From Acidobacteriaceae bacterium (GTDB lineage: Bacteria; Acidobacteriota; Terriglobia; Terriglobales; Acidobacteriaceae), in assembly GCA_030039675.1 (NCBI GenBank), contig JASHVE010000148.1, positions 1-36,748 of the forward strand: DNA of 36,748 nt, read 5' to 3'. Positions 14,383 through 36,748 of this stretch are shown one piece after another (the first letter of the stretch is position 1; each line of letters starts with the position of its first letter). Both the position numbers and the translations under genes were made by a program. The notes under the pieces are model-generated. The model had not been told where the DNA came from and ran no database searches. It saw only the letters and a program-made list of their open reading frames with translations.

Positions 14383-14799
14383 GCAGTACCGAAGGATCTG
14401 CCGCCGGGGCGCAGTTACACACAGCTGCCTCGGCGAGCAACTCGCGTCACGAGCTCGGAGATTAGACCTGTTCCACAGTTTATGCGCCCCCGCTGAAACT
14501 GAAGGAGGAGGAGGCTTCGAGATATAGCAACTGTGAAACCGCAATAGCCCTTCGACGGGGCGAAGTCTACGATCCAATCAATGATCCTGAACCAGAATCA
14601 GGTATACAAACTACCCTGTTATCGCGAGCTGCGTCTGGCCGCGCTTTTGGCAGCCAAATACTGCGGAAAGATCTGCGGTTCCGGCATTCTTCGCGAGGCT
14701 CGGACTACGGAATCCAGCCTAACTCGATAATTCACGCACCTCGCGCTCGCCAACTGGTGATCTATCCCACCGGAGCTTTGTGCTTTATCCATGCCGGTG
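14383..14799. other. Gene-free stretch between convergent genes
   Basis: About 417 bases lie between the ends of the TonB-like and VWA genes. They contain the short family B palindrome (14464-14543) and two small hairpins: CTTCG-ACGGGG-CGAAG at about 14551-14566 and CCTGA...TCAGG at about 14586-14602. The hairpins could help end transcription, but neither is followed by a T-run. I see no coding signal in the remainder. Confidence 0.5.
14464..14543. repeat. Family B palindromic element, shortened copy
   Basis: Outer arms TTCCACAGTT (14471-14480) and AACTGTGAAA (14529-14538) pair with one mismatch. Both arms and the adjoining sequence (ATGCGCCC on one side, GGCTTCGAGATATAGCAACTGTGAAACCGC on the other, in pieces) match the 112-base copy at 36334-36445 read in reverse. 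The central inner hairpin of that copy is missing here and replaced by a short GGAGGAGGAGG-type stretch. It looks like a deleted or diverged relative of the full element. Confidence 0.6.
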
Positions 14800-28650: not shown

Positions 28651-28766
28651 TAGAGCAGCTCCCGAATTAACGTCGACTTTTTGAGCGCGGTGCAAGGTGG
28701 TCTTTTCTTGAGGAAAAGGCCACTTAGACATCTTCCTTCGGTATACACAAATTCGGGAACTGCTAT
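28651..28766. repeat. Family A nested palindrome, copy 2
   Basis: Outer arms GCAGCTCCCGAATT (28655-28668) and AATTCGGGAACTGC (28750-28763) pair with one mismatch. The inner hairpin runs from GTGG at 28697 to CCAC at 28723. The sequence lines up end to end with copy 1 at 16056-16172, same orientation, with roughly a dozen substitutions, most of them in or near the inner hairpin, where some changes keep pairing. CTA occurs at both edges (28650-28652 and 28763-28765). Confidence 0.85.
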
Positions 28767-28984
28767 GGCCCAAGGAGGAAAAGCAAAATAAGCGGAACCA
28801 GTCCATAGACCCGTGGAGCCAGCCCAGCCCCGATGCAAACGTCACCGGCCTTCCAATGCTCCACGTTCGGTGAGAGCTTGCCGATTCATATTCTCTGCCC
28901 AGCATCCGTGACACCAGATGCAAAGAAGCCCAGAAGCGGAATGCTGAATCCTGACGCGAACTCCGTCTTACATTATTTATCGAA
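28763..28984 (-). pseudogene. Possible remnant of a small membrane-protein gene
   Basis: Read leftward, this frame gives FASGFSIPLLGFFASGVTDAG, a TGA at 28886-28888, then 40 residues ending GLVPLILLFLLGP and a TAG. The hydrophobic, Gly/Pro-punctuated reading looks like a membrane-protein C-terminus with one nonsense change. The final stop codon is formed where the family A element begins, so the element may have cut the gene. I do not recognise the family, and chance is possible. Confidence 0.2.
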
Positions 28985-35149: not shown

Positions 35150-35158
35150 GAGGCTGTT

Positions 35159-35644
35159 TCATAAACACCGCCTGAGTGTAATCCAGAGGCAGGCGAGGTA
35201 GAAGAATGCGCGGTATGTGGCGAGCAGATGCTCATGTCTGACCAAGAGCCGTCGGAACTGGCCGAACCACGCGTTGGTTCGCTCGATGATCCAGCGGCGT
35301 TTGTAGCGGCGCAGTTTTCGTCCGTCCTCGTAGCGCCTCTGCTTGTTGTTCTTCCGATACGGGGCAATCAACTCGATGCCGCGCTTCTTCAGCCGCTCGC
35401 GCAACGGGTCCGAGTCGTAGGCGCGATCGGCGATCACGCGTTTCGGCTTTTGCCGCGGGCGCCCTTTGGCTCTGGGGACACGGACTTCGGCGAGCGCGGC
35501 TTCCGCAAGACGAGCTTCTCCGGGAGAGGCACTTTCAAGCCGAACTCCCAACGGAAGACCCTGACCGTCGACCAATACCATCCACTTCGTTCCCTTGCCC
35601 CGCTTGGTTTTACCGACGGCAGCGCCCCCTTTTTGGCGCAAAAC
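35159..35644 (-). CDS. IS5-family transposase, catalytic part (orfB)
   Basis: This frame has no start of its own that makes sense; residues upstream of about 35644 are off-frame relative to orfA. The family reading runs from KGGAAVGKTKRGKGTKWMVL through VIADRAYDSDPLRERL (second catalytic Asp) to RRWIIERTNAWFGQFRRL (catalytic Glu with the trailing Arg), ending ITLRRCL. To join orfA the ribosome must shift by +1 (or -2) near the run AAAAAGGGGG at 35625-35634. Such runs are used for programmed frameshifting in IS5/IS427 elements; a simple indel in the run is the alternative. Confidence 0.8.
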   Translation of the reverse strand, partial: VLRQKGGAAVGKTKRGKGTKWMVLVDGQGLPLGVRLESASPGEARLAEAALAEVRVPRAKGRPRQKPKRVIADRAYDSDPLRERLKKRGIELIAPYRKNNKQRRYEDGRKLRRYKRRWIIERTNAWFGQFRRLLVRHEHLLATYRAFFYLACLWITLRRCL

Positions 35645-35966
35645 TGCCGTCCAGAAAGGCTTCGTCCCACTTGAGCAGCCCCTCGCCGTCCAGTGCGCCG
35701 AGCAATGTGCGCCAAGCGTCAAGCCAAACATCTTGCTCTTCCCACTGCCTCAAGCGCCACCAGCAGGTCGCCGGAGACGGATACTTGTCGGGCAGAAACC
35801 GCCAAGCGGCGCCGGTCCACAATACCCGGAGAATGCCTTCCAGGCAGTCCCGGTTCGATGCCCACGGGCGACCGCGTTTATCCCGGCGGCGCTTGGGCTC
35901 AGGCAACAGTGGCTCAATCAGCGACCACTGCGAATCCGCCAACAGTTCGAATCGACGTTTGCTCAC
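35610..35966 (-). CDS. IS5-family transposase, N-terminal part (orfA)
   Basis: This 118-residue frame starts with GTG at 35966, 76 bases inside the right end of the IS. It carries the DUF4096-type DNA-binding region of IS5 transposases (RFELLADSQWSLIEPLLPEP, RPWASNRDCLEGILRVLWTGAAWR, in pieces) and the first catalytic Asp region (DEAFLDGSFAP). It ends 24 bases after leaving the family pattern at the A5G5 run, where the frame changes to that of orfB. Alone it would lack most of the catalytic domain. Confidence 0.82.
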   Translation of the reverse strand: MSKRRFELLADSQWSLIEPLLPEPKRRRDKRGRPWASNRDCLEGILRVLWTGAAWRFLPDKYPSPATCWWRLRQWEEQDVWLDAWRTLLGALDGEGLLKWDEAFLDGSFAPKRGRCRR

Positions 35967-36041
35967 CCAACCAGTGAGCCAAAATCAACCCCGCCTCAAA
36001 CACTACCTGCCTTAAGGCCGAACCTATTTATGAAACAGCCT

Positions 36042-36197
36042 CTAAGAACTTGTTGAAATAGGTACTATCTCTGCGAACCCTGTCTCGGCAACAATGTGCT
36101 CCACAGGAAGACGCGTCGTCTCCTGCAAAAACCAGCGCGCAGCGAACCCGTGGGCCGGAGCTCGCGGGACTGCGCACGCGTTAACGTCCCGCGTTGC
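36042..36197 (-). pseudogene. Scrap of an AraC-type HTH regulator
   Basis: Reading leftward towards the IS, the 51-codon frame contains LQETTRLPVEHIVAETGFAE, which resembles the last helix-turn-helix of GlxA/AraC regulators (a pattern like LLE-T-LPVE-IA---GF). It then runs out of pattern (IVPISTSS) and stops at a TAG formed at the IS junction. No start or DNA-binding first half is present. The match is short, so identity is tentative. Confidence 0.35.
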
Positions 36198-36213: not shown

Positions 36214-36617
36214 ATGCGCGAGCTGGGTGTCGCTCCGCATGTGACGAAGAACGACAAGGGCCGCAGCAGCAACCTGGATCGGAGAACGACACGCCAGCCC
36301 GGCTATGCTGTGAGTCTGAGCCGTCGCTGGCTACAGCGGTTTCACAGTTGCTACATCCCGAAGCCACTGCTGCAAAGTGGCATTTTCCTCAAGAAAATGC
36401 CACCTTCCGCGGCTTCGGCAAGGGCACATCAACTGTGGAACCGCTCTAATCGAAAAAAGCTTCGGCTGACTGAAGCAGGCCGGGCCGCTGCGTCAGGTGA
36501 AGCTGCGCGGGCTGGACAAGGTGGACTGGCTGTTCGTCTTCACCTGCACACAACCTGCTGTGACTGCCGCGACTGATGGCCCTGCCGCCGGGAGGGCTCG
36601 CCGGGCAGTGTGCCTGA
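36214..36617 (+). pseudogene. Transposase C-terminal remnant split by a palindromic element
   Basis: The first piece (36214-36333) reads MRELGVAPHVTKNDKGRSS, then RRTTRQPGYAVSLSRRWL, typical of the C-terminal third of an IS5/IS1182-like transposase. The family B palindrome follows. The second piece resumes at 36449 with IEKSFG, a TGA at 36467-36469 where the family has Trp, then LKQAGPLRQVKLRGLDKVDW and LFVFT. After this a frame change leads to NLL-stop-LPRLMA (as in the family's YNLLRLPRLMA) and the final stop at 36615-36617. The N-terminal two thirds are absent. It carries a truncation, a nonsense change, a frameshift and an insertion, so it is dead. Confidence 0.75.
36334..36445. repeat. 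Family B nested palindrome inserted in a transposase remnant
   Basis: Outer arms AGCGGTTTCACAGTTG (36335-36350) and CAACTGTGGAACCGCT (36430-36445) pair with one mismatch. CCGAAGCC (36358-36365) pairs with GGCTTCGG (36411-36418), and GTGGCATTTT (36377-36386) with AAAATGCCAC (36394-36403) around a 7-base loop. CTA flanks it on both sides (36331-36333 and 36446-36448). Removing the element and one CTA joins RRWL to IEKSFG in one frame, as the transposase family requires. Confidence 0.88.
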
Positions 36618-36748
36618 ACCGTAGCTGCGGCCATCGGAGCGCCCTCTCCGATGCCCGCAAACCCAGTGAATACTGATCAAGCCCGCCATTCAGACGGAAT
36701 TTCAACCCGGCAGACTCGCAAATCCCCAGTAAATCCGCTGCACCGCAG
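36618..36748. other. Right-edge sequence without a recognisable gene
   Basis: The last 131 bases hold a clean hairpin, CATCGGAG and CTCCGATG (about 36632-36655) around a short loop, just after the transposase remnant. No T-run follows, so it may be an insertion-sequence end or a weak terminator. No coding pattern is visible. Confidence 0.3.

Follow-up and report, generated by a model that had tools for sequence, protein, structure and literature searches.

An abundant TA-flanked palindromic MITE in an acidobacterial genome, very probably moved by an IS630-family transposase

The closest described counterpart of the element reported here is RUP of Streptococcus pneumoniae, an imperfect palindrome of 107 bp that is present in about 110 copies and is flanked by a TA duplication. 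Its inverted repeats resemble those of IS630-Spn1, and it frequently lands in IS transposase genes (PMC2229807, PMC3049150). Correia/NEMIS and ERIC are palindromic MITEs of about 105-155 bp with TA ends and a TA-type target duplication (PMC2229807). For ISY100, the IS630 transposase alone suffices for excision and for insertion at TA, with duplication of the TA (PMC2170065). The acidobacterial element resembles RUP in its size, copy number, imperfect palindrome, TA duplication, ends of an IS630-like design and insertion in an IS transposase gene. It differs from RUP in phylum and sequence, in lacking an exact autonomous partner in hand, and in an internal hairpin that is conserved across genera. 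Size, palindromy and TA ends and duplication likewise recall Correia/NEMIS and ERIC, but the tips and cores are different; no sequence relation to either was found, and the element has no match in phage or plasmid collections. ISY100 and the bacterial IS630/Tc1-mariner elements use the same TA target with TA duplication (PMC2170065), but they are autonomous and about 1.0 kb long, whereas the palindrome carries no gene. By anatomy and target the element is an IS630-group MITE, a well-known kind. The MITE family is apparently new for Acidobacteriaceae, and both it and its unusually conserved central hairpin appear to be undescribed; a literature search that took in few subscription journals found no published report of such a family in Acidobacteria.

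The window, the whole stretch of 36,748 nucleotides that was analysed, is one contig (C354) of a 4.67-Mb draft genome in 623 contigs that is 75.8% complete. Positions 36332-36448 form a 117-bp block in which a 113-bp imperfect nested palindrome stands between two TA dinucleotides. The parts of this block, and the gene that it interrupts, are listed below.

36332-36333, no strand: duplicated target TA, left copy (C-TA-A target); the boundary holds for 80 copies whose flanks differ, and empty sites show a single TA
36334-36446, + strand: miniature element proper, 113 bp, one base off the genome consensus
36334-36350, + strand: left terminal inverted repeat, CAGCGGTTTCACAGTTG; position identical in all copies
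36358-36365, + strand: middle stem, left arm, CCGAAGCC; pairs with 36411-36418, not conserved between subfamilies (39.8% of cells paired)
36377-36403, + strand: core hairpin, GTGGCATTTTC-CTCAA-GAAAATGCCAC; the part conserved across genera
36411-36418, + strand: middle stem, right arm, GGCTTCGG; pairs with 36358-36365
36430-36446, - strand: right terminal inverted repeat, read inwards GAGCGGTTCCACAGTTG; matches the common copy boundaries
36447-36448, no strand: right copy of the duplicated target TA, from the copy alignment and empty sites
36214-36547, + strand: IS5-family (IS5_4, ISAzs10-like) transposase relic interrupted by the element; the frame stays open through the joined site and meets a stop right after it

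An earlier note on this DNA had described three nested inverted repeats, and the outer, middle and core repeats are all present. The outer arms (36334-36350 and 36430-36446) match at 15 of 17 bp, the middle pair is 8 bp long, and the core stem comprises 11 bp (36377-36387 with 36393-36403) around the CTCAA loop. Folded as DNA, the palindrome has a z of -6.2 against dinucleotide shuffles, none of 200 shuffles being as good. Copies with different flanks define the ends as TA-CAGCGGTTTCACAGTTG...CAACTGTGGAACCGCTC-TA. Irrespective of the left flank, 79 of the 80 copies have a C before the right TA; this C is thus part of the element, which is therefore 113 bp long and not 112 bp as first given. 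Its longest reading frame has 39 codons and matches no protein family, in agreement with the earlier statement that it encodes no enzyme. In the + direction the block 36332-36448 is stop-free in all three frames (38-39 codons each), and the net insertion of 115 bp shifts the frame.

The earlier note had also excised the element together with one of two flanking CTA trinucleotides and recovered a transposase reading RRWL-IEKSFG. CTA is indeed present left and right, and the flanks, once joined, give an open frame again, ...SLSRRWL/IEKSFG-stop-LKQAGPLRQVKLRGLDKVDWLFVFTC. However, the stop follows directly after the site (IEKSFG-stop-LK) and only a gene fragment remains; the host gene thus was, or is, a relic. 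The fragment matches IS5-family transposase profiles (NF033581, E 4e-4; PF13751, E 4e-4). Homologous transposases in 238 plasmid records are unbroken at the site; an example is Azospirillum sp. B510 with its ISAzs10-like transposase (55%). No empty paralogue of the host gene was found in the same genome. A further contig, C133, was considered as a second independent insertion in the same gene and rejected, being a dovetail overlap of contig ends: window 36268-36748 and C133 14056-14536 overlap over 481 bp at 98.75%. C133 probably continues the right side of the window, a case of strain variation or of an assembly break.

The element is one of about a hundred copies in this acidobacterium. A search of the genome gave 186 candidates, and the 40 that were scored are all 97-100% identical to the element. 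At up to 3 mismatches the left tip has 223 matches, a figure that counts both ends of each element, compared with 0 for the reversed control. Thirty-three copies in the genome were found with letter-perfect ends. From the examined contigs we extracted 80 distinct copies, representing 79 sites, as the window locus is also on C133. Sixty-one of these 80 are exactly 117 bp including TA, and their median identity to the consensus is 98.3%. Among the copies of this genome the core and the tips vary less than the intervening arms: non-consensus positions amount to 2.1% in the core and to 1.3% and 3.7% in the tips, against 6.0% and 7.3% in the arms between them. The nearest named records with the repeat are the Acidobacteriaceae MAGs JOPF027 and JOPF172, and DNA matches to the element occur in 15 of 150 family genomes.

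Other members of the family were seen as well. At 28651-28767 on the - strand, the window holds a member of another palindrome subfamily, the second and a related one (TAGCAGTTCCCGAATTTGTGTATACC...core GGCCTTTTCCTCAAGAAAAGACC...GGGAGCTGCTC-TA) whose left TA has decayed to CA, and at 14463-14546 a decayed 84-bp remnant in which both tips are recognisable and the core hairpin is lost. Elsewhere in the genome, two 136-bp copies (L138 11122-11257 and L141 8959-9094) are chimeras that have their outer parts from the main subfamily and their interior from a different one, which suggests recombination between subfamilies.

Of the 80 copies, 60 have C and 20 have T in front of the left TA; behind the right TA, 40 of 79 have A and 36 have G (together 76 of 79). 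The target is thus Y-TA-R. TA is found on both sides in 63 of the 80 copies. The proposed 3-base CTA duplication was rejected: the duplication is the 2-bp TA at YTAR, a quarter of the copies have TTA on the left instead, and CTA is the TA plus a common flanking C, a coincidence. Filled and empty sites, a comparison that the earlier note had suggested, could be paired in four independent contexts, and the empty site was always exactly TA. At L141 in the same genome, a copy sits within a related palindrome, of which six other instances in that genome lack the insertion. Further pairs are L042 with L066 and L053 with L055. At L045 a copy is nested inside a sister copy, as against dozens of intact sisters, the empty site again being TA, and at L057 a member of a different subfamily occupies that very TA in the same element. 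Both of these nestings, in JOPF027, are in sister elements at one internal TA beside the core hairpin, which makes this TA a recurrent hot spot within the element. Copies avoid open frames, the median spanning frame being 147 codons compared with 361 at control YTAR sites. On the evidence of copy number, different flanks and filled/empty pairs, the palindrome is a real, high-copy element and, as the earlier note had held, a mobile non-autonomous unit that was inserted in a transposase gene, and not a static terminator.

The element has several features of a MITE of the IS630/Tc1-mariner group: it is shorter than 200 bp, has no transposase gene, carries fixed terminal inverted repeats (17-bp tips in 80 copies) and shows the TA duplication at filled and empty sites. 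The RAYT-like Y1 transposase put forward earlier as a candidate mover is not supported; a duplicated TA combined with ends of IS630 type indicates a DDE transposase from the IS630/Tc1-mariner group. We consider it highly probable that this is an IS630-driven, RUP-like MITE moved in trans by an IS630-family DDE transposase. Such an enzyme would act on the protein-less element by recognising its two 17-24 bp ends, cutting it out and inserting it at Y-TA-R, where the TA would be duplicated.

In an unbiased search, TA-flanked inverted-repeat ends were taken from the IS630 (PF13358) and IS5_3 (NF033580) elements of the family. The end design TA-NAGCRKTTTC-n7-TGTA was found on one clade of two-ORF IS630-family elements in related genomes and not on other IS630 or IS5 elements. 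Members of this clade are 1.01-1.05 kb long, their proteins are IS630 transposases (NF033545, E 4e-41; PF13358, E 1.6e-36), and their ends read, for example, TTA-GAGCATTTTCAATCAAGGTGTA and CTA-GAGCGTTTTCCCTAATGCTGTA. L203 has the ends GAGCATTTTCAATCAAGGTGTA/GAGCAGTTTCATCGTAGGTGTA, and similar ends are found on L208, L209, L210, L212, L214, L237 and L240. The window tip is C-TA-CAGCGGTTTCACAGTTGCTACA; the consensus copy and JOPF027 read ...GCTATA / ...GCTGTA. These tips are in register with those of the clade, with AGC at 2-4, TTTC at 7-10 and a TGTA-like motif at 19-22, the agreement of the window tip being confined to the shared positions (about 13 of 22 against L203). A scoring matrix was derived solely from MITE tips and applied to automatically extracted end pairs. 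Of the 10 pairs from the clade, 6 were positive, compared with 0 of 24 from other DDE_3 and 0 of 21 from IS5_3 elements (Fisher p 7e-6). The four negative clade pairs were of the wrong length, shifted, or chance repeats. A rank test on all extracted pairs, chance ones included, gave p 0.02 against other DDE_3 and a weak p 0.13 against IS5_3. Tips typed by hand and those extracted automatically pointed in the same direction, with fewer tips from automatic extraction.

The host genome itself has a broken, frameshifted member of the clade on contig C422, 67% identical to the L209 protein. Its left tip, GAGCAGTTCCCGTAATAGTGT, closely matches the genome's own subfamily-2 tip, TAGCAGTTCCCGAATTTGTGT; as GAGCAGTTCCCG, it is the tip of that second palindrome subfamily (TAGCAGTTCCCG). 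We infer that a transposase of this clade binds and moves the subfamily of the window. A transposase gene flanked by the same arms, which the earlier note had proposed to look for, was not found with the exact window tips, either as long-range tip pairs in 1.4 Mb of examined sequence or on the DDE_3 genes of the host genome and JOPF027; the exact partner may be collapsed or missing in the 76%-complete draft, or extinct. Rejected candidates were the host's own IS630 at C225 (ends CTGTCCTGTCTCTGAA), the only IS630 of JOPF027 (L110, ends GTGTTTTGTCCC) and the IS630 genes of the same-genus genomes G008 and G124, which have other ends. The genes of G144 gave zero clade matches.

A MITE moved instead by an IS5-family (IS5_3 / IS427-like) transposase, which also uses TA-type targets and GAG ends, was an attractive alternative. 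IS5_3 elements have the same YTAR-type target and start with GAGC or GAGG, and one lies inside the window (35150-36042, TTA...TAA, ends GAGGCTGTTTCATAAA). Tip scoring led us to reject it as very unlikely: none of the IS5_3 end pairs was positive with the MITE tip matrix or had TGTA at 19-22 in register, and the IS5_3 and PF01609 elements of the host genome have other ends. Comparison of ends also bore out the earlier observation that none of the transposases of the window shares those of the element. The IS5_3 element of the window, on the - strand, has a T-TA...TA-A setting, apparently also a YTAR target, and its transposase is split in two frames.

The strong fold, the conserved core hairpin and the mostly intergenic location would also suit a static structural element, such as a terminator, attenuator or regulatory RNA, that had spread by duplication and recombination with the TA flanks as part of the repeat. 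Yet empty sites with one TA occur in unrelated contexts, and insertions are found inside a transposase relic and inside another copy. The T-run of an intrinsic terminator is absent after the core hairpin, CTTCC standing there instead, and a search of Rfam 15 gave only chance-level miRNA/snoRNA matches, far below the cut-offs. We regard a static origin as extremely improbable. A REP/REPIN-like element mobilised by a Y1 (HUH) transposase of RAYT type can practically be dismissed, for although the element is palindromic, of high copy number and mostly outside genes, HUH/Y1 transposition produces no target duplication, whereas every filled/empty pair has a clean TA duplication, and the ends are fixed inverted repeats at TA of a unit of 113 bp, not 20-40 bp.

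If, as we favour, the element is an IS630-driven MITE, its core is unusual. Elements of related genomes have the same anatomy, mostly 116 bp with TA, but other tips, such as CAGCGGTTTCGCTTCTG (G062), CAGCGTTTTCAGTTCAA (G104) and GAGCAGAAGCAGGGTTG (G089). The central hairpin, GTGGCNTTTTC-CTCAA-GAAAANGCCAC, is shared by 12 genera, whereas the tips have diverged with compensating changes. Of 398 genomes of the family, 45 contain the core GTGGCNTTTTCCTCAAGAAAANGCCAC with up to 2 mismatches; they represent 12 of 79 genera and have 1 to 185 matches each (168 in the host genome), with zero control matches among the genomes listed. The 185 matches are in G352, a 6.4-Mb, 98% complete genome of the same genus. 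In an alignment of 13 members, pairing amounts to 85.5% in the outer stem, where 11 of 17 pairs have changed on both sides, and to 92.2% in the core stem. The covariation score of 0.302 compares with 0.123 for shuffles and with no more than 0.114 under sliding. A transposon needs its two tips to change in a matching way, so that this pattern alone is no proof of an RNA.

The interior of a MITE is expected to drift and its ends to be kept. Between genera we see the reverse pattern, the ends drifting in step and the middle being kept. The core hairpin is absent from 10 IS elements, and an origin of the MITE by plain internal deletion from the IS630 clade was therefore rejected. The CTCAA loop is asymmetric, and hence one direction of the core hairpin has been preserved. 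Shared descent with recombination between subfamilies, as in L138 and L141, would explain the kept core, as would a function of the hairpin. The core presumably matters for the spread of the element, through folding or through binding of the transposase or a host factor. A more specific proposal, possible though doubtful, is that the core hairpin with its one-directional loop is a functional module in its own right (a site for the transposase or for a host factor of DNA bending or replication, or a part with an RNA function). It would have been retained by hundreds of elements in 12 or more genera, with the tips specific to the transposase swapped or re-evolved around it. If this is true, the family would be a modular parasite, changing its mover but keeping its core.

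Acidobacteriaceae are a dominant but poorly workable soil group, to which these results add an abundant, recently active MITE superfamily whose mover is probably an identifiable IS630 clade. Natural empty and filled sites and candidate transposases are supplied with it. The conserved core, absent from the putative parents, makes it testable whether the interior of a bacterial MITE, or only its ends, matters for spread.
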